Shown piece after piece: positions 1,034 to 35,938 of a DNA stretch of 39,479 nt (position 1 is the first letter of the stretch; each line of letters opens with the position of its first letter). The stretch is from a virus. Below the pieces are notes generated by a model. The model saw only the letters and a list, made by a program, of their open reading frames with translations. It made no database searches and was not told where the DNA came from. Location of the stretch: the IMG/VR virus record IMGVR_UViG_3300021960_000194, positions 1 to 39,479 of that record. One strand, given 5' to 3'. Both the position numbers and the translations under genes were made by a program.

Positions 1034-4000
1034 TTATTTAGTACCTTTTAGTTCATCTAGTTCTGCACGAAGATCTTGAATTAGAACTTGTTGTTCTTTT
1101 ACAGCTTCAATTAGAACTGCAACCAAGTTTCCATAAGCAACGGACTTCATTCCTTCTTCATTTGTGTGAACAACATCAGGAACAATTTTTTCAACTTCTT
1201 GTGCAATTACACCAATTTGATGTGCATCTTTGTCAACACGATCGAACTCAACACCACGAAGTTTAAGAACTTTATCAAGGCCATTTTCAATAGTCTTGAT
1301 ATTTGTCTTAAGTCTTACATCAGAACTTGCAGTGACTTCACCATCTACAGATAGATTTCCACTGTTGTTCAGTGTCATTCTTTCTGTGTTGGCAGTTCCT
1401 CTCCACTCGTGTATACCATCTGCATTATTACCATAGATGGTTTTTCCATTAGTTGTAAAGTATAGTCTATTCTTACCATCATCACTATTTTGCCATACAT
1501 TATTTGCACCTCTGAGGAATTGAGTTTCAGTTCTACCGTCAAGTAAATCAGCGTTTAGATTAGTACACTTGGTTGTTGAAGAAACAACGATTGGTGCAGT
1601 TCCTGTAGGAACTTGTGATCTGAACAGAGCAGCAGTGACAACACCAATTGGATTACTTCCGCCTCCACCACAGTTGATAAAGGTTAGTTTGTTTGCTACT
1701 CCGAAGTTGGTAATAATACCTGCATTAGCATAAATGCCATCTCCAGATCCACTTCCACTTACCCACAGTTTTCCTCCAATTTGACCGTTTAGATACTTAA
1801 GTGTTCCACCAGTTGCACCACTTGCATTTCCATTTAGAGTTGTAATAATACCAGAGTTTACATAAGCAGTTGGAGCACCCATCCAACCAGTAACAACAGC
1901 AGTTGTTGTGAATCCAGTATTAACATAAGCAATTGGAGCACCCATCCAACCATTAGATGCAACTACTAAAGTTGTTGTGAATCCAGTGTTTGTGTATGAG
2001 TTTACAAGTGTTGCTGTGGTACTCTTGAAGTTGGTAATGATACCAGTGTTTACTGCAGCAAACGGAGTTGCAAAGTTAGTGTTAGCTCTCAGTCCAGTAA
2101 TAAATGCAGTAGTAGCATTCATTGTGGTGATAGTAGAAGCAGTACCAGTCAGAGAGGTTACAACACCGACGTTAAACATCGCAGTTGCAATAGTTTGACC
2201 AACACCAGCATTTCCGAATCCACCAATATATTGAGTGCGAATCGCAGTCATAATGCCAGATTGGATGAAGGCATTATTTACTGAGAGTGTGTCAACATTA
2301 TTCTTTGTGACAATAATTTCATTTGCAGTAATAACACCAACAGGATCTGTCTTGAGATACTTAACATCTAAAGTACCTGCAATAGTGGATACACCAGTAT
2401 AAACAGAGTTGAATGAGTTTTCAAATCTTATTGTTGGATTTGTGAATGTTACTGCATAACCAATAACCTCTAAGTTTTGGAACTGTGCAATACTGTTTGC
2501 ATTTTCAGTAATTACAGTGTAGTTGGTTCCAATACCCTTGTAAGTAAGAGTCTTATTGATGTCAATCTCATCAAATGCTGCACTACCAATAGCCTGAGAA
2601 CCAGAGAATGTAACAGCGCCACCAACATAAAGGTTCTTGACTTTTACAGTTCCATTAACTTCTACAGCATCACTAAAGTCATAGATTCCTGAACTTTGAC
2701 CTACACCGATCTTATCTAATTTCAAGAAATCACTATTCTTTTCTTGAGAAATCATTCCCCAACGACGCCAGTCGCCATCAACATAAACATGTCCAATATA
2801 TCCAGCTGGATCTGGGTTTGCGATGAATGAAATATCACCAACTTTTTTAGCGTCTGTTGGGGTTGAAATGCCAACAGTCATCTGTTTTGGCTGAGATGCA
2901 ACACCCTTGAGATAGAAGTCAATAGTTTCTAGACCATCTTCAGAAGTGTTAGTAACTTTCTGGGAGAAGTTGACTGGACCATAGAACTGTGAAGTCTGGT
3001 TGTTATTCTCACCACCTTCAACAGTGATTCTTTCTTTAACAACAAGGTCATCAAAGACACCACTGTTTGCCTTAATAGTACCCTCAATGTCGTCACCGAA
3101 GAAGGAAATAACTGGTGCTTCGATTGTTTCTTCTTCACCAGTAGCACCGTTAATCTTAGTAGCACCAGAGTAGAATTCACCTCTGTCGTTCATACCAGTA
3201 TAAACAACAGTACCACCATCCTGTTCTCTAGCTTGAGAAACTAGAATTTCTTCATCACTTAAAATTCTATCCTGTTTTACAGGTAAACCAGTTGAATAGT
3301 TACCAGGACCATAACCAAGATACTCAAACGTGTGACCAGATGCACGAAGAATAGATGGTCTACGAATTTCTGTTGGAATAACATAGACTTTTCTTACTAC
3401 TGATCCGATGGCATTTGCGTCCGCAACTGTAGAGAATTGTCCTCTTAGAACATCAAATGTGTCTCCAGCTGGATCATTCGTAAGTCTAAGAATCTCTGCA
3501 TTTATGGAAACATAATCACCCTTCTTAAATCCACCAGCATTTGTTAATACTATCTGGGTATCAGTTGAAGTAATTGGTGTTGATAATGTGGTAGAAATAC
3601 CAGCATACATGAAGTTGCCTCTTCCACCGAGGTTCTCTTCACCAAGACCTAGAGCTCTTCCGTTTGCAGCAATAGCAGTCTTCTGGAGGGTTAGATTTCC
3701 AAAAGTTACTGCATCATAATTCCAAACTTGTGCAACCGTTGAAATTCCTGAAGTAAATGTAAATGAAGTTATTCCTAGAACTTCATCAACTAGGAACTTT
3801 TCTTGATAATATGTATTGCCAGATCCTACGATAACAAAAGTATTTCCAGGAAGTAATCCGTGACCTTCTTTACAAACAACTGTTGTAATACCAGTTTCAA
3901 TAGTAAGATTGAGAGTACTTATACCAACTGCCTTAGAACCATGATAAGCGATAGGAGTTCTCTCATCATTTCTAGATCTAGGTTGATTGACACCTCTTTC

Positions 4001-7000
4001 TGCATATACTGTAATAACATTAGGTGCAGGAACTTCTACAAGTCTGAATGTTCCATTCATGGTTGGTTCCATGAATCCACTCAATTCAATAGAATCATAT
4101 GTGCTATCGTGAATTTCAGTAACTTGAACGTAAGAATACGTAGATGGAGCAGCAGCTGGGAACTCGGAAACAACCATGGTGTTTCCTACGCCATAAGCAC
4201 TACCACCATTAACAATACTTACGGATGAAATTGTATTTGCAATCGAAACATTCGCTTTTACGGTTGCATTTCTTCCAAGTATAGCATTATTAATCAATTC
4301 AGCAGAATAAATGGTACTTGTAATACCAGCACTGTTATTATAACCAGCACCACCTTCTTGTAAGGTTATGGTCTTAATGGGGTTTAGATTGTGAGCAACG
4401 TCCGTATAGAGGGTAATAGTTGTATTACCAGCACCAGTAACCGTTACTCCAGTTACAGCATATCCTACTCCAGTATTTTCAAGTAGATAGTTTAGAGCTT
4501 CTTTCGTCAAAGAAGCTCTCTTTTCGCTTGTTCTAACGACACCAGCTGGAGACAATTCGGCATGACTCAAAGTTGGAGCTGGGTCAGAATTGTAGTTATC
4601 TCTATCAACTTGTGGATAGAGATTCTTTACGTCCTGGTTAAAGTTTCTTTCACTTAATCCATATCCAATAGAAGATGTTGGTTTAATACTACCAGATAGA
4701 GCGATAAGGTTGTAGATACCGTCTTGTCCACCAGCACCAGGAATCAGAGGCTTAAGTTCTTGACTTCTATAGATGTATAGACTATCTTTAGCTTTTGACT
4801 TTTCTACTCTTGGTAGATTTTCAACTTGTTGTTGTGTGGATCTTAGGTTTACTTGGTTTTGGAATGCTCCAGGACTTGAGGTGAATCCACTAATTGCAAA
4901 CTCTCTAGGAGTAACTACCTCGATAACTTCCCAAGAACCGTTATATGTATAGGTTGGTGAATTGGCACTAACTACATTAGAAATTTTTGCAATATCTCCT
5001 ACAAGTAACTGGTGAGGTAGTTCTGTCTTAACGTAAGCAGTTCCACCAGAATACTCAATATGAGAAATGATCTTTGGATTTCTTAATTGAGTTGTATCTG
5101 CAAGAGGATTGGTTAATATTGATGAACTGGTAATACCAGTTGTCTTTGATTCCTGTAGAACAAATCCATCAGTTGGTGGACGAGCATTAACAAATTCTTT
5201 CGGAATAACATAACGTAGTTTATAGATTCTATCATCAAGACCTCTATTATCAACTCTTCTAGTGATAAATGTAGAACCTGTTTGAGCACCTAGGATAGTA
5301 GCTCCGATACCAACAATACCCGTGTAAATTTGGTTGAAGAATGTAACAGGTGTACTTTGGATATACCATTGATTTTCTGTGGTATCATACTGAATTGGGT
5401 GGCCAGCATCTCCTGGGTTCTTATCGGCAACATAACTAATTACTTCTAATCTTCCACCACCATTTGAAATACCAGTGATTGTATTGCCAGCATTAGCATC
5501 GTTTAAAGTTGTGGATAGTTTAACTTGATCCGCTGTTAATCCAGTCGTGGAAACATAATATACTTTATCAGCAGATAAGTTTTCTGGAAGACTTCCAGTG
5601 TCACTAGATACTCTGACTTTTTCTCCATTAAAGAAAGTGTGTGGAGAAGTTAGAGTTATAATATTTGAAGTAATACTGTTAATACCAGCTTCTCTACCTA
5701 CGACAAAGACTTTCTTAGATGAAGTTGTGATACCAGCAGGACCAGGCATCAAGATAGGCGACTGATAGTTACTCTGAGTCGCACCAATAATTACGGATAA
5801 GTTAAGTACTTCACCCTGTTTTGCACCAATTCTAAACGAGTCAATCTGTGAAGGTGGTTGAACGTCAGCACTCTTATATCCAGCAATGTAGAGTCTTTCA
5901 GTATTAGCAGCAGAAATAATCTTATCTACGTCTAGAGGCAACCAAGTTACGTTAGTGTCTCTGGCTACTAATTCTCTTGGTGGAATAATGTGTGTAATAT
6001 AACCAACATCATCTCTATCAAAAGATTCTGGTCTAAATCCAACAGATTCTAGTGATACTGCACCAAAGTTAGAGTTAGAGTTGGTGATTGACATATCACC
6101 ACCACTCTCAGCAACGAAGTGACGTGCAAAACCAATAGCGAAGACAGAAACGCACTGAATAATTGAGTTTTCTGTTGCTTTAATATGTACGTTTTCCCAA
6201 TTAGGTTTATAAACAGATCTTGAATTGGTGTGTAGAGGTTTCTCGGATTCAGAAACAGTTAGATTATCATTATAAATTCCAGTCGTAGTATCATAAAGAA
6301 TGAAAGCATTATCGTCTTTTTGTAGTGAAATACCAGTGAACTGTGCAGTCAACATGGACTTGAATCCAGTTGCTTTTGAACCATCAGCCCACATTCCATT
6401 CATACCATAAACAGATCTCAATGTACATGAGAAAATATATGGAGATGCAGATGATACTGAGTCTGACTCAACAATTGTTCTTGCATTAAGAATTTGGGCA
6501 GAAGCTGGTAGAGCAACTGATGGTGTTGATGGAGCTTCAAACTTAAACTCTGTTGGACTTGTTACGTCACTTACCAAGAATGATCCATTATATGATTCGA
6601 TGCTCGTCGTAATTCCGCTAATAAGAACGGGAGTATCTTTATAAAGACCGTGCTCGGTAAGAGTAGTTACTGTAATGGTAGTTGTTGGTACTAGACCATT
6701 ACCAGATCTGATACTTGTAATACCGATTGCATCTGCACGAAGATCACCAACAATTCTATATTCATCAATAGATGGTTCGAAATCTGAAACATTATTTACT
6801 GGATAGTTTGGTATTCCTCTTCCAGATGTATCACCATAAGCGTATGTAACTTTATAGTAATACATTTCTAGGTCGGTTAGACCCGATCTTTCTGATCCTA
6901 GAACAACTTCATTAACACCATCAGCATATTCAAAACAAGTTAGTTTGTGGTGTGAATAATTAGGTACAACTTTTCTTAAGCTAGAATCCTTATAACAAGC

Positions 7001-7591
7001 CCTTTGTGGATCTGCGTCAAAAAGTGTAAATGCAGTGAAGTAACAAGTACCAGTTACTTTAAAGATCGAACCAGCAGGTACAGAATCATTTTGTGGATCT
7101 GGTACATATAGTGGACGAATCTTGGTCTTACGGAGATCCAAACCAACAATAGAAGTACCTCTTGGCAGGATTACACCACCGCTTGTTGAGTTGTACTTGA
7201 ATAGATCATTATCCTCATCGAGGATATCAAAATTGGAGTTCTCTGTAAATTCTGTTAGTGTTGCTCCAGATGTAGTCCAATTTCCATCTAGAAGTCTCTT
7301 AAATTCTGCGATTCCACCCTGATTTGTAATAGAATGTCCTGGTCTATTGTCAATGTAGTGGACACCAGGATATACTAGAATTGTGGTTGAGTCAATCTTA
7401 TCGTTATTTCTTCCTTCTACATACGAAAATCTTGAGGATTCTAGTACGGCCCTCTGAATAGTTCTAAAGGGTCTTGTTAGGGAGTTACCTCTATTTTCAA
7501 TACTATCAGTAGCGTCAAAGTCTGATGGGTTTACATAAAGGATATTACCTTCAGCATTTTTTAGGAAATTCTCTAATCTACTTAGGGGCAT
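1034..7591 (-). CDS. Giant fibre-like virion protein with C-terminal S74 intramolecular chaperone
   Basis: A 2185-aa structural protein. The N-terminus (NILYVNPSDFDATDS, then a pectate-lyase-like start RPFRTIQRAV and TILVYPGVHY around residues 40-90) suggests a right-handed beta-helix or attachment region as in phage fibres. The long middle is rich in Thr, Gly and Ile with recurring GIST and GITT motifs. The last 97 residues form a peptidase S74 (endosialidase-type) chaperone: SSDVRLKTNI at residues 2089-2098 with the expected Ser and Lys for self-cleavage, then IGVIAQEVE and a C-terminal coiled coil. By analogy the domain trimerises the fibre and is then released. It is probably a tail-fibre or side-fibre protein that contacts the host; which T4 protein it replaces is unclear. 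A TCTAAATA site lies 36 bases upstream. Confidence 0.9.
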   Translation of the reverse strand: MPLSRLENFLKNAEGNILYVNPSDFDATDSIENRGNSLTRPFRTIQRAVLESSRFSYVEGRNNDKIDSTTILVYPGVHYIDNRPGHSITNQGGIAEFKRLLDGNWTTSGATLTEFTENSNFDILDEDNDLFKYNSTSGGVILPRGTSIVGLDLRKTKIRPLYVPDPQNDSVPAGSIFKVTGTCYFTAFTLFDADPQRACYKDSSLRKVVPNYSHHKLTCFEYADGVNEVVLGSERSGLTDLEMYYYKVTYAYGDTSGRGIPNYPVNNVSDFEPSIDEYRIVGDLRADAIGITSIRSGNGLVPTTTITVTTLTEHGLYKDTPVLISGITTSIESYNGSFLVSDVTSPTEFKFEAPSTPSVALPASAQILNARTIVESDSVSSASPYIFSCTLRSVYGMNGMWADGSKATGFKSMLTAQFTGISLQKDDNAFILYDTTTGIYNDNLTVSESEKPLHTNSRSVYKPNWENVHIKATENSIIQCVSVFAIGFARHFVAESGGDMSITNSNSNFGAVSLESVGFRPESFDRDDVGYITHIIPPRELVARDTNVTWLPLDVDKIISAANTERLYIAGYKSADVQPPSQIDSFRIGAKQGEVLNLSVIIGATQSNYQSPILMPGPAGITTSSKKVFVVGREAGINSITSNIITLTSPHTFFNGEKVRVSSDTGSLPENLSADKVYYVSTTGLTADQVKLSTTLNDANAGNTITGISNGGGRLEVISYVADKNPGDAGHPIQYDTTENQWYIQSTPVTFFNQIYTGIVGIGATILGAQTGSTFITRRVDNRGLDDRIYKLRYVIPKEFVNARPPTDGFVLQESKTTGITSSSILTNPLADTTQLRNPKIISHIEYSGGTAYVKTELPHQLLVGDIAKISNVVSANSPTYTYNGSWEVIEVVTPREFAISGFTSSPGAFQNQVNLRSTQQQVENLPRVEKSKAKDSLYIYRSQELKPLIPGAGGQDGIYNLIALSGSIKPTSSIGYGLSERNFNQDVKNLYPQVDRDNYNSDPAPTLSHAELSPAGVVRTSEKRASLTKEALNYLLENTGVGYAVTGVTVTGAGNTTITLYTDVAHNLNPIKTITLQEGGAGYNNSAGITSTIYSAELINNAILGRNATVKANVSIANTISSVSIVNGGSAYGVGNTMVVSEFPAAAPSTYSYVQVTEIHDSTYDSIELSGFMEPTMNGTFRLVEVPAPNVITVYAERGVNQPRSRNDERTPIAYHGSKAVGISTLNLTIETGITTVVCKEGHGLLPGNTFVIVGSGNTYYQEKFLVDEVLGITSFTFTSGISTVAQVWNYDAVTFGNLTLQKTAIAANGRALGLGEENLGGRGNFMYAGISTTLSTPITSTDTQIVLTNAGGFKKGDYVSINAEILRLTNDPAGDTFDVLRGQFSTVADANAIGSVVRKVYVIPTEIRRPSILRASGHTFEYLGYGPGNYSTGLPVKQDRILSDEEILVSQAREQDGGTVVYTGMNDRGEFYSGATKINGATGEEETIEAPVISFFGDDIEGTIKANSGVFDDLVVKERITVEGGENNNQTSQFYGPVNFSQKVTNTSEDGLETIDFYLKGVASQPKQMTVGISTPTDAKKVGDISFIANPDPAGYIGHVYVDGDWRRWGMISQEKNSDFLKLDKIGVGQSSGIYDFSDAVEVNGTVKVKNLYVGGAVTFSGSQAIGSAAFDEIDINKTLTYKGIGTNYTVITENANSIAQFQNLEVIGYAVTFTNPTIRFENSFNSVYTGVSTIAGTLDVKYLKTDPVGVITANEIIVTKNNVDTLSVNNAFIQSGIMTAIRTQYIGGFGNAGVGQTIATAMFNVGVVTSLTGTASTITTMNATTAFITGLRANTNFATPFAAVNTGIITNFKSTTATLVNSYTNTGFTTTLVVASNGWMGAPIAYVNTGFTTTAVVTGWMGAPTAYVNSGIITTLNGNASGATGGTLKYLNGQIGGKLWVSGSGSGDGIYANAGIITNFGVANKLTFINCGGGGSNPIGVVTAALFRSQVPTGTAPIVVSSTTKCTNLNADLLDGRTETQFLRGANNVWQNSDDGKNRLYFTTNGKTIYGNNADGIHEWRGTANTERMTLNNSGNLSVDGEVTASSDVRLKTNIKTIENGLDKVLKLRGVEFDRVDKDAHQIGVIAQEVEKIVPDVVHTNEEGMKSVAYGNLVAVLIEAVKEQQVLIQDLRAELDELKGTK
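1035..1042 (-). promoter_or_regulatory. Candidate late promoter (ACTAAATA)
   Basis: ACTAAATA on the minus strand, overlapping the last codons of the giant fibre gene and 31 bases before the 54-aa coiled-coil gene. It shares the TAAATA core with other late-type sites here. Confidence 0.3.
1861..1987. repeat. Imperfect tandem repeat within the fibre gene
   Basis: A 28-bp block at 1861-1888 recurs at 1924-1951 with one difference (63-bp period). An 18-bp block at 1901-1918 recurs at 1970-1987. In protein this gives two consecutive copies of a GWMGAP / AYVN / TGFTTT unit, about 21-23 residues each, ahead of the S74 domain. It points to recent internal duplication in the shaft of the fibre. Confidence 0.8.
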
Positions 7592-7626
7592 CTTGTTTTC
7601 CTACAGTGACAAATCTATTCTTTTAG

Positions 7627-7634
7627 TATTTAGA
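7627..7634 (-). promoter_or_regulatory. Candidate late promoter (TCTAAATA)
   Basis: TCTAAATA on the minus strand, one base from the T4 late consensus, 36 bases before the ATG of the giant fibre gene. The same octamer precedes gp26 (23767-23774). Confidence 0.45.
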
Positions 7635-7638
7635 CACT

Positions 7639-7667
7639 AAAAAACCTCCCCATCAAGGGAAGGTTTT
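7639..7667 (-). terminator. Rho-independent terminator
   Basis: On the minus strand AAAACCTTCCC pairs with GGGGAGGTTTT (11 bp including one G-U pair) around a short loop and runs into TTTTTTAG. It ends the island transcript after the Mom-like gene and insulates the late fibre gene downstream. Confidence 0.8.
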
Positions 7668-7693
7668 AATAGCCACACGGAAGGGATTTGTCG

Positions 7694-7714
7694 CTGGTGT
7701 ATTAGTATCACCAG
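7694..7714 (-). other. Hairpin just after the Mom-like gene
   Basis: CTGGTG and CACCAG form a perfect 6-bp stem with a 9-base loop, 9 bases past the stop codon and ahead of the stronger terminator. There is no T-tract, so a transcript-stabilising 3' hairpin is more likely than a second terminator. Confidence 0.4.
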
Positions 7715-7722
7715 TTATTATA

Positions 7723-8334
7723 TTACCACTTTACTTCTTTCCAGGCAAGTCTTTCCTTTAACTCCTTTTGAAAAACCATAAGATAACGATGTTTACGAGA
7801 GCGATCCCTCCACTCACCGTCAATGCCGCTGACACTACCTCTAGAATGTTTGGTTCCATCTGCGTAATAGAAATCTTTTTTGGGGTCTGTTAGACCGTAG
7901 TAAGTAAAATTACAAGCTCTGTATATAGTTCCAACGTGGTGACTAGAGTCAGCATAACTAAGAATAGCACGAACTGCGGCATCTTTTCTAAATCTCTTAA
8001 TACATTTACTCACAAACCATGAAGTGATATTATATTCTTCTTTCTGAACTTCTGGGTCTACGCATAAACGAGAGAGTTCAAACAAGCCATCTTGTTCATC
8101 TCTTTGCAGACCAAATGCACCTACGGCTATTTCTGGGACTGGGAGACCAGTAAAAATGCAAGCAGCAAGGCACTTGCCAATTCTAAGAGGACATTCCCAC
8201 TCAGTACGCTTAAAAAGTCCATAATTATACCCAGATTTAAAATCTTTGGACTCATCTTTTAGATAGTGATGAGTATAAAGAAGATCTTTGATTTCTTCCT
8301 TACTAACTCTATCTATGTAAAAATCATTCTTCAC
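7723..8334 (-). CDS. Mom-like GNAT-fold DNA-modification protein
   Basis: A 203-aa protein that reads like phage Mu Mom, the GNAT-fold enzyme that modifies adenine in DNA (reported product N6-methylcarbamoyladenine) and protects phage DNA from restriction. Matching landmarks are HHYLKD at residues 22-27, FELSRL at 85-90 (Mom has a similar E-L-N-R segment) and SYADSSHHVGTIYRACNF at 126-143. These cover the His-Tyr, Asp and Tyr positions that I recall as important in Mom. The gene starts with GTG at 8334; the nearby ATG is out of frame. It is the last gene of the early-type island, directly before the terminator. Some Mom relatives may act on substrates other than DNA, so the family is clearer than the substrate. 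Confidence 0.75.
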   Translation of the reverse strand: MKNDFYIDRVSKEEIKDLLYTHHYLKDESKDFKSGYNYGLFKRTEWECPLRIGKCLAACIFTGLPVPEIAVGAFGLQRDEQDGLFELSRLCVDPEVQKEEYNITSWFVSKCIKRFRKDAAVRAILSYADSSHHVGTIYRACNFTYYGLTDPKKDFYYADGTKHSRGSVSGIDGEWRDRSRKHRYLMVFQKELKERLAWKEVKW

Positions 8335-8347
8335 TGGGTATAATTAC

Positions 8348-8512
8348 TTACTTTTGTCTGTGTTTCACGATATATTCTACTGTATTTGCTACATCATTCA
8401 TAGCTTCTCTTAAATCACTCTGTCCACCTGCATGTTGATCCATTGTTGAAGGATCTGTGAGAGTCCATCTCCACTGATCCATACCTTTATTGTGCCAGAG
8501 ATTAATGATCAT
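8348..8512 (-). CDS. Small conserved-type hypothetical protein
   Basis: A 54-aa protein of unknown function with a Trp-rich N-terminus (DQWRWTLTD) and a helical C-terminus (LREAMNDVANTVEYIVK). A longer reading frame begins at 8548, but that start lies inside tRNA-Thr, so the ATG at 8512 is chosen. It sits between tRNA-Thr and the Mom-like gene and is probably co-transcribed with both. No catalytic motif, membrane segment or metal-binding cluster is visible. Confidence 0.65.
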   Translation of the reverse strand: MIINLWHNKGMDQWRWTLTDPSTMDQHAGGQSDLREAMNDVANTVEYIVKHRQK

Positions 8513-8523
8513 GGTTTTAATTT

Positions 8524-8531
8524 TATTTAGT
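8524..8531 (-). promoter_or_regulatory. Candidate late promoter (ACTAAATA)
   Basis: ACTAAATA on the minus strand lies between tRNA-Thr and the 54-aa gene, 12 bases before its ATG. It could allow late expression of the small gene and the Mom-like gene apart from the early island transcript. Confidence 0.3.
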
Positions 8532-8536
8532 TTTGA

Positions 8537-8610
8537 AGCCCCCGACAAGACTTGAACTTGCGACCTGAGCTTTACAAAAGCCCTGCTCTATCCAACTGAG
8601 CTACGGAGGC
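8537..8610 (-). tRNA. tRNA-Thr(UGU)
   Basis: A complete cloverleaf of 74 nt without an encoded CCA. The acceptor stem GCCTCCG / CGGGGGC has one G-U pair. The D-arm GCTC...GAGC, anticodon stem GGGCT/AGCTC with loop TTTGTAA (anticodon TGT at 8574-8576) and T-arm with TTCAAGT all fold. It would read ACA codons, which A/T-rich phage genes use often. It lies between cpeT and a small gene. Confidence 0.93.
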
Positions 8611-34256: not shown

Positions 34257-35351
34257 TCAACCACCCAGGAAGAGTGTTTGAAGTGGATGTTTTGTTTTAT
34301 TATTTAACAAGTGATGCCAAACATATTTTGCGGCACCAATTGCAGTCCCACCATCATGAGCTGTGGGATCAATAAAAAAGTTTATTTCTGGAAATTCTTT
34401 AATGTACTCATAATTATTGACACAATTTAAGAAATAACCACCGGACAATACAACATTTTTCGTTCCCGTTTTTTGGATCAATTCTTTTATCAGTTTTATC
34501 GTATGTTTTTTAGTTTCTTCTTGCAACTTTTTTGAAAGATTAGCGGCTAAGTTAAATATAAAATCCGAATCTTCAGGTAACTTATATTTGGACTTATGTT
34601 TACCATAATATTCTTCTAGATACTGAAAAATAGTTTTATTGTCCGATAACCAACTATCGGTATAACTGTCATAAGAAAACCACTCTTCTTCTCCAACTTC
34701 ATCTATATTTCCATAGGGCGATAGTCCCATTGTCTTTCCAGGGGATTGAGTATCGGTGAAACAACATACTTTATTAAACAATGCACCACAACTAAGAGTT
34801 GTTGTCCACAATTTATTCTTAGAAAGTCTAATAGAAAAATTATCTGTTTTATTAAGATTCAAATAATCATACACTTTTTTTATTTCATCGTACTTTCCAA
34901 TTTCTGGAAAATAATACATCGACTCGACTTCTCTAGAATCATCATTGTCTAGAAGATAAACTCCGCCTCCATCCAAAATTAAAGCAGCTGCTTCATCAAA
35001 TCCAGAAGAATAAAAGGCAGTGCAGGCATGATACAAATGATGTTCCCAATTCCAATGATCTTTATCGTATGTTATTTGAAATTCGCCAAGACGTTTTTTT
35101 ACAAGATCTATGATGTTTTGGTCTGAAATATCATAATAAGATTTATCCCTACCGTAAGAAGCAAAAATGATATGATCTAAATGATTAGTATATTTAAGTA
35201 TGTCTTTTAAACATAAAATATCACTATCTAAAACCCATTCTTGTTCTTTTTTTCTACTTATCCTGTCATCTTCAAGATAAAATAACAATTCCCCATCCTT
35301 TAGAAGAGCGATGGAAGCATGGTGAGAAATGTTAATACCTAAAATATACAT
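34257..35351 (-). CDS. Carbamoyltransferase, N-terminal (Kae1-like) domain as a separate gene
   Basis: A 364-aa protein matching the N-domain of NodU/CmcH/TobZ-type O-carbamoyltransferases: MYILGINISHHASIALLKDG at the start, HHLYHACTAFYSSGF with the metal-binding His cluster at 104-108, LILDGGG at 124-130, KTMGLSPYG, VVLSGGYFLNC and AHDGGTAIGAA. This domain transfers carbamoyl from carbamoyl-adenylate to a hydroxyl. It lacks the C-terminal YrdC-like half, which is encoded by the gene transcribed just before it. Both chains would have to associate. The order C-domain gene then N-domain gene is the reverse of the usual single protein. Confidence 0.86.
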   Translation of the reverse strand: MYILGINISHHASIALLKDGELLFYLEDDRISRKKEQEWVLDSDILCLKDILKYTNHLDHIIFASYGRDKSYYDISDQNIIDLVKKRLGEFQITYDKDHWNWEHHLYHACTAFYSSGFDEAAALILDGGGVYLLDNDDSREVESMYYFPEIGKYDEIKKVYDYLNLNKTDNFSIRLSKNKLWTTTLSCGALFNKVCCFTDTQSPGKTMGLSPYGNIDEVGEEEWFSYDSYTDSWLSDNKTIFQYLEEYYGKHKSKYKLPEDSDFIFNLAANLSKKLQEETKKHTIKLIKELIQKTGTKNVVLSGGYFLNCVNNYEYIKEFPEINFFIDPTAHDGGTAIGAAKYVWHHLLNNKTKHPLQTLFLGG

Positions 35352-35353
35352 GA

Positions 35354-35938
35354 TTAACTATTTGGAACTACTACTAATTTGTTTTCCTCTGGAAGATAAA
35401 GATACTCAATTTTACTATTTTCAAGTGTCCAGTATGCATGATCAATAGTGTGACAAATAACTTGGCCTCCCAAATTAAAAGAAGTATTAAACAACATCGG
35501 AACAGTTGTTTTTTGATAAAAACACTTAATTAAATTGTAATAGTGATAGTTCTGTTCTTCTGTTACAGTTTGAATTCTACAAGTATCATCTACATGAAGA
35601 ACTCCCGGTATCAATTCTTTTTTATCTTGTTTTACTGGAATAGCATACATCATATAAGGAGATTCCTTTAGAGTCAACATCTCAAACCAATCATGAGCAT
35701 GTTCCAACAAAACACTGGCAGCAAATGGTCTCCACCATTCTCTTTTCTTTATTGAATTTACTGTATTTCTAGCATTTGGATCTCTTGGGTCATAAAGTAT
35801 TGACCTATTTCCCAAAGCCCTAGGACCACCCTCGGTTTTTCCTTGGAATATAGATACAACTTTCTGTTTTTCCAGCAATTCAACAACGTCTGAATAATGA
35901 ACGTCATTAAATTCCATTGTATTTTTTGACGTTTGCAT
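35354..35938 (-). CDS. Carbamoyltransferase, C-terminal domain as a separate gene
   Basis: A 194-aa protein equal to the C-terminal domain of NodU/TobZ-type carbamoyltransferases: FQGKTEGGPRALGNRSIL at 31-48, WWRPFAASV, DDTCRIQTV, and MLFNTSFNLGGQVICH. This domain builds carbamoyl-adenylate or completes the active site. It ends 2 bases before the ATG of the N-domain gene, so the pair is probably co-translated. It begins 2 bases after the upstream 82-aa gene. Confidence 0.86.
   Translation of the reverse strand: MQTSKNTMEFNDVHYSDVVELLEKQKVVSIFQGKTEGGPRALGNRSILYDPRDPNARNTVNSIKKREWWRPFAASVLLEHAHDWFEMLTLKESPYMMYAIPVKQDKKELIPGVLHVDDTCRIQTVTEEQNYHYYNLIKCFYQKTTVPMLFNTSFNLGGQVICHTIDHAYWTLENSKIEYLYLPEENKLVVVPNS

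Follow-up and report, generated by a model that had tools for sequence, protein, structure and literature searches.

A predicted Mom-family DNA modification enzyme encoded in an accessory slot of T4-like cyanophages

By computational analysis of a 39,479-base viral sequence (IMG/VR record IMGVR_UViG_3300021960_000194; the whole stretch is referred to here as the window), we identified a protein which, judged by its sequence and its modeled fold, is a genuine member of the Mom family with an intact active site. We consider it probable that this enzyme, whose gene occupies an accessory slot of the phage genome, carries out a Mu-like modification of DNA, most likely at adenine N6, with an anti-restriction benefit. 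Its aquatic branch of the family appears to be undescribed; in the open-license literature we found no paper on a Mom-like protein in a cyanophage, and papers may exist elsewhere. The Mom family itself is already known and has been annotated elsewhere in cyanophages.

Results

The gene is an uninterrupted open reading frame (ORF) of 203 amino acids that begins with GTG and spans exactly positions 7723 to 8334 on the minus strand. Its product matched the Pfam Mom profile (PF25680; E value, 1.2e-21) over its full length (profile positions 1 to 196 of 202) with a score of 77.7 bits, which is 50 bits higher than the curated cut-off of 27.1, and it also matched PHROG 1384, "Mom-like DNA modification protein" (E value, 2e-29); a search of NCBIfam with the protein gave no match. 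When the single sequence was searched against the PDB, no relative was found; a profile of 54 environmental homologues recovered phage Mu Mom (8BV8; E value, 3.3e-24) and, beyond this structure, no match below 0.1. In a Foldseek search with an AF2 model of the protein (pLDDT, 91.1; pTM, 0.86), the crystal structure of Mu Mom ranked first (E value, 1.2e-10; TM, about 0.68), five orders ahead of the next GNAT, the best-matching N-acetyltransferase (E value, 2.4e-5). A first-pass annotation of this sequence had called the protein a Mom-like enzyme and had named structure prediction against Mu Mom as the comparison in which it might prove to be an ordinary acetyltransferase; the best match was Mu Mom itself, by profile and by fold, and the call stands together with the Pfam and PHROG assignments.

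The stretches HHYLKD (residues 22 to 27), FELSRL (residues 85 to 90), and SYADSSHHVGTIYRACNF (residues 126 to 143), which had been put forward as the Mom core, were all present at those residues and align with HYSRR (residues 48 to 52), MELNRM, and SFADERCGRAGVVYQASNF of Mu Mom, respectively. The spacing of the core Asp-Tyr pair was close to that of Mu, as had been claimed (9 residues from D129 to Y138 versus 10 from D139 to Y149), and the overall correspondence is far beyond chance. We drew the invariant residues of the family from Mu Mom and its phage homologues (Listeria, Bacillus, Mycobacterium, Vibrio, Enterococcus, Salmonella, halovirus, and cyanophages), and every one of them is kept. 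With the Mu residues and the minus-strand codon positions in parentheses, these are H23 and Y24 (H48 and Y49; 8263 to 8268); E86, L87, and R89 (E98, L99, and R101; 8068 to 8079, a stretch that includes S88, opposite N100 of Mu); S126, A128, and D129 (S136, A138, and D139; 7948 to 7959, reading S-Y-A-D against S-F-A-D in Mu); G135 (G146); Y138 (Y149; 7921 to 7923); A140 (A151); N142 (N153); and G147 (G158). Residue S105 (codon at 8020 to 8022, minus strand) aligns with S114 of the AF083977 translation of Mu Mom. The title of 8BV8 specifies an inactive S124A mutant, and the chain differs from Mu Mom in that translation only at S114; the mutated serine therefore aligns with S105, and the serine marked by the PDB title as needed for activity is kept. 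By sequence comparison, the active site is complete and conserved.

The window comes from a T4-like Synechococcus phage, in agreement with the earlier assignment to a cyanophage. Its gp32 is 82% identical to that of S-SCSM2R, and it also carries CpeT, PhoH, a gp33-like late regulator, and tail tube and baseplate genes. Elsewhere in the window (34257 to 35938), the N- and C-terminal domains of a Nol-like carbamoyltransferase are encoded by two separate ORFs whose order is swapped, the gene for the C-terminal domain coming first and that for the N-terminal domain second. The mom gene has a tRNA-Thr/Leu cluster on one side and, as its direct 3′ neighbor, a giant tail-fiber gene (2185 amino acids; 1034 to 7591). 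On its 5′ side are a small ORF (8348 to 8512) of unknown function that matches phrog_2818 and in most relatives immediately precedes mom, and tRNA-Thr (TGT; 8537 to 8610). Between mom and the fiber gene there is an intrinsic-terminator-like hairpin (7645 to 7662), in a region conserved in the Mom-less S-SCSM2R, followed by the late-type box CTAAATA (7627 to 7633), which is the box of the fiber gene and not of mom; all of these features are on the minus strand. An inverted repeat, GACAAATC/GATTTGTC (window positions 7560 to 7722), flanks the terminator and the late box and is also conserved in S-SCSM2R.

This arrangement is widely shared. Among the loci with a gene present downstream of mom, the same giant tail-fiber gene follows directly in 70 of 77, and 62 of 76 loci have a tRNA gene (mostly Thr and/or Leu) no more than 800 nucleotides 5′ of mom; in L021, mom is away from the fiber gene. 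A few relatives have an extra ORF of 250 to 280 amino acids which overlaps the end of mom and is inserted before the fiber gene (L009, 5578 to 6423; L116, 1383 to 2141; L057, 5585 to 6388). The ORFs of L009 and L116 are homologous (43%), and that of L057 encodes a different protein, for which a weak 4Fe-4S match was found. S-SCSM2R, the closest isolate, has the same locus order (tRNA-Leu, CpcT, tRNA-Thr, small ORF, and fiber) without mom; its flanks and those of the window align across the gap, and a search of its whole 244-kb genome gave no Mom, making it a natural knockout for this gene. Of the fiber relatives that were 76% or more identical and had sufficient upstream sequence, 18 had mom and 9 lacked it; at 65 to 71% identity, mom was found in 2. 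mom is thus an accessory gene that is exchanged at a fixed site and has been gained or lost between close relatives.

Matches to this Mom branch were found in 598 stretches of IMG/VR, and nearly all of the best 80 of the 598 lie at the cyanophage fiber locus. In the tree, the window protein falls in an 83-row clade (support, 100) consisting mainly of fiber-locus cyanophage loci, nested in a 104-row aquatic clade (support, 100) that includes roseophage CRP-212; individual rows on long branches, Mu Mom among them, are not securely placed. The Moms of cyanophages S-SSM7 and DSL-LC03 fall with those of Vibrio and Enterococcus phages in the opposite half of the tree, so that two or more lineages of Mom exist within the Kyanoviridae. 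Exactly one Mom was found per contig in 18 of 18 Mom-bearing contigs (first large-contig set), and purifying selection acts on the gene (median dN/dS among relatives, 0.135). A cellular origin was considered and rejected, the genome scan having returned one match, in a MAG contig.

The first-pass annotation had placed mom in an early island, under an early-type promoter, and had suggested that a nearby 2OG oxygenase could take part in the modification. Our data do not bear this out. Sigma70-like sites were no more common around mom than in shuffled sequence (9 versus 10.8), and the sequence upstream of Mom showed no enrichment of them across 80 relatives; an early promoter was rejected for want of any such excess. 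The neighborhood is made up of tail genes, tRNAs, and the tail fiber, a setting that fits mid-to-late expression of mom better than early expression. This phage does have genuine late boxes (10 just 5′ of starts versus 0.85 expected; 0 of 2,000 shifts), and one lies within 60 nucleotides ahead of the fiber gene in 75 of 75 relatives. The late box at 8524 to 8530, ahead of the small ORF, is kept in 1 of 71 relatives (background, 3%), and a late promoter for mom based on this nonconserved box was dropped. As for the 2OG oxygenase, it occurs near 15 of 82 Mom-bearing loci versus 24 of 49 Mom-less loci (P = 3e-4); since it is rarer beside Mom, it is not the partner of Mom.

Regulation of mom by Com has been described for Mu (PMC6483171). 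We found no Com zinc-finger translational activator beside the window mom. The small upstream ORF was considered as a Com analogue and rejected, because it has no Cys and hence is not a Com-like zinc finger, and because its presence in Mom-less phages means that it is not a dedicated partner of Mom. Nor is there at this locus a fused or adjacent restriction endonuclease with which mom would form a momylation restriction-modification pair.

One further pattern was pursued as a possible footprint of Mom, on the premise that phages whose DNA is protected by Mom might show weaker avoidance of restriction sites. The ratio of observed to expected CCGG sites was below 0.25 in 15 of 17 Mom-less contigs versus 0 of 19 Mom-bearing contigs, a contrast seen in two fiber subclades. 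Relaxed CCGG avoidance as a consequence of Mom was nevertheless abandoned: the freshwater, Mom-less S-CRM01 has 73 sites versus 64 expected and shows no avoidance, S-SSM7 and DSL-LC03, which bear the other type of Mom, still avoid CCGG, and the motif contains no adenine. Because S-CRM01 behaves like the Mom-bearing phages, habitat or host is no less good an explanation of the pattern. Across the sequences compared (L313-L332, L333-L352, and L373-L377), most of those from T4-like cyanophages without Mom, which are mainly marine, have next to no CCGG, with no sites found in examples where 55 and 79 were expected and none in S-PM2, where 25 were expected. Host restriction as the cause of this avoidance in Mom-less phages is a guess on our part.

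Discussion

The product of Mu Mom is N6-carbamoylmethyl-deoxyadenosine. DNA modification is most likely also the function of the window protein, given its sequence and modeled fold, and by analogy with Mu it is likely that DNA would be the substrate, adenine N6 the site, a carbamoylmethyl group the product, and protection against restriction the benefit. We propose that this Mom-family GNAT enzyme, predicted from its residues to be catalytically complete, would modify the phage's own DNA, most likely by adding a small acyl-derived group to adenine N6, as Mu Mom does. DNA modified in this way would be cut less by those host restriction enzymes whose recognition sites contain adenine, in line with the protection from restriction that Mu Mom gives phage DNA (PMC6483171). 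In T4-like cyanophages, mom is an accessory gene whose place is a fixed recombination slot, with the tRNA cluster on one side and the tail-fiber gene on the other.

It is possible, if somewhat unlikely, that the protein is a base-modifying relative of Mom whose transferred group, target base, or motif is unlike that of Mu Mom. The aquatic clade sits on a long, separate stem (2.13 changes per site), and the window protein is about 25% identical to Moms of other branches; the transferred group or the target motif may for these reasons differ from that of Mu. The clade also has conserved stretches that are absent from Mu Mom (for example, PVPE..GAFGL and HSRG) and an insertion around residues 43 to 52. 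Against this, none of the family-invariant residues is altered, nor is the serine that is essential in Mu Mom. A role other than anti-restriction is also possible, since Mom-like domains are found joined to homing and restriction endonucleases as well (PMC7824862). More speculatively, and in our opinion doubtfully, the aquatic branch might be a distinct Mom subfamily making a base modification unlike that of Mu in many uncultured T4-like cyanophages, with carriage of the gene helping to decide which cyanobacterial hosts they can use.

The strict placement of mom beside a giant fiber gene and 3′ of tRNA genes could instead suggest a Mom-fold enzyme that acts on something other than phage DNA, such as the adjacent tail fiber, tRNA, or host DNA. 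We regard this as improbable, in that the homology of the family points to DNA and the mom of L021 lies away from the fiber. Moreover, Mom distances and fiber N-terminal distances show hardly any correlation (Mantel r, 0.14) and there are fiber relatives without Mom, so that the two are not co-adapted, and we discarded co-adaptation as a candidate. That an ordinary GNAT acetyltransferase was mistaken for Mom is very improbable indeed, for although the fold is that of a GNAT and many N-acetyltransferases match it at E values of 1e-5 to 1e-3, the lead of Mu Mom over all of them, its profile match, and the score above the Pfam cut-off refute this as far as comparisons of sequence and fold can.

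Mom is among the least understood of DNA modification enzymes, and its chemistry is based largely on one phage. A Mom branch that is common in uncultured viruses, together with a close Mom-less isolate with an otherwise identical locus, provides a natural test pair, which would allow the action of Mom to be tested outside E. coli. In the cultured Synechococcus phage S-B43, there is chemical proof of a cytosine modification, the initial step of which blocks HhaI in vitro (PMC12783734); if our reading as a Mu-like adenine-N6 enzyme is true, adenine modification would join this recently proven cytosine modification.

Among known systems, jumbo phages encode Mom-family enzymes that are often fused to nucleases of the REase fold (PMC7824862), whereas the window protein stands alone with no adjacent nuclease. 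An example of the family in a Bacillus podophage has 21-bp flanking repeats (PMC9965433). The Mom-like proteins annotated in RefSeq/GenBank for S-SSM7 and DSL-LC03 place the family in Kyanoviridae, and that of S-SSM7 also adjoins tRNA-Thr and tRNA-Leu genes; both differ from the window protein in sequence (28 to 31% identity) and in locus. In Synechococcus phage DSL-LC03, moreover, the Mom gene is preceded by a gene annotated as a type II restriction endonuclease; the two genes overlap (L085, 3334 to 4504) and have the appearance of a Mom-based restriction pair carried by the phage. The nearest cultured relative that we found, a protein of Roseobacter phage CRP-212 (10348 to 10932; 50.5% identity), belongs to the same aquatic clade but comes from a roseophage, lies beside MazG and ribonucleotide reductase genes, and has no Mom annotation. 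Mu Mom itself (8BV8; AF083977 Mu_53) belongs to a different subfamily, is 16 to 18% identical in the fold alignment, and comes from a transposable phage rather than a T4-like cyanophage, and the window gene lacks a com gene beside it; the two nonetheless share the same fold, homology over their full length, all of the family-invariant residues, and a GTG start.
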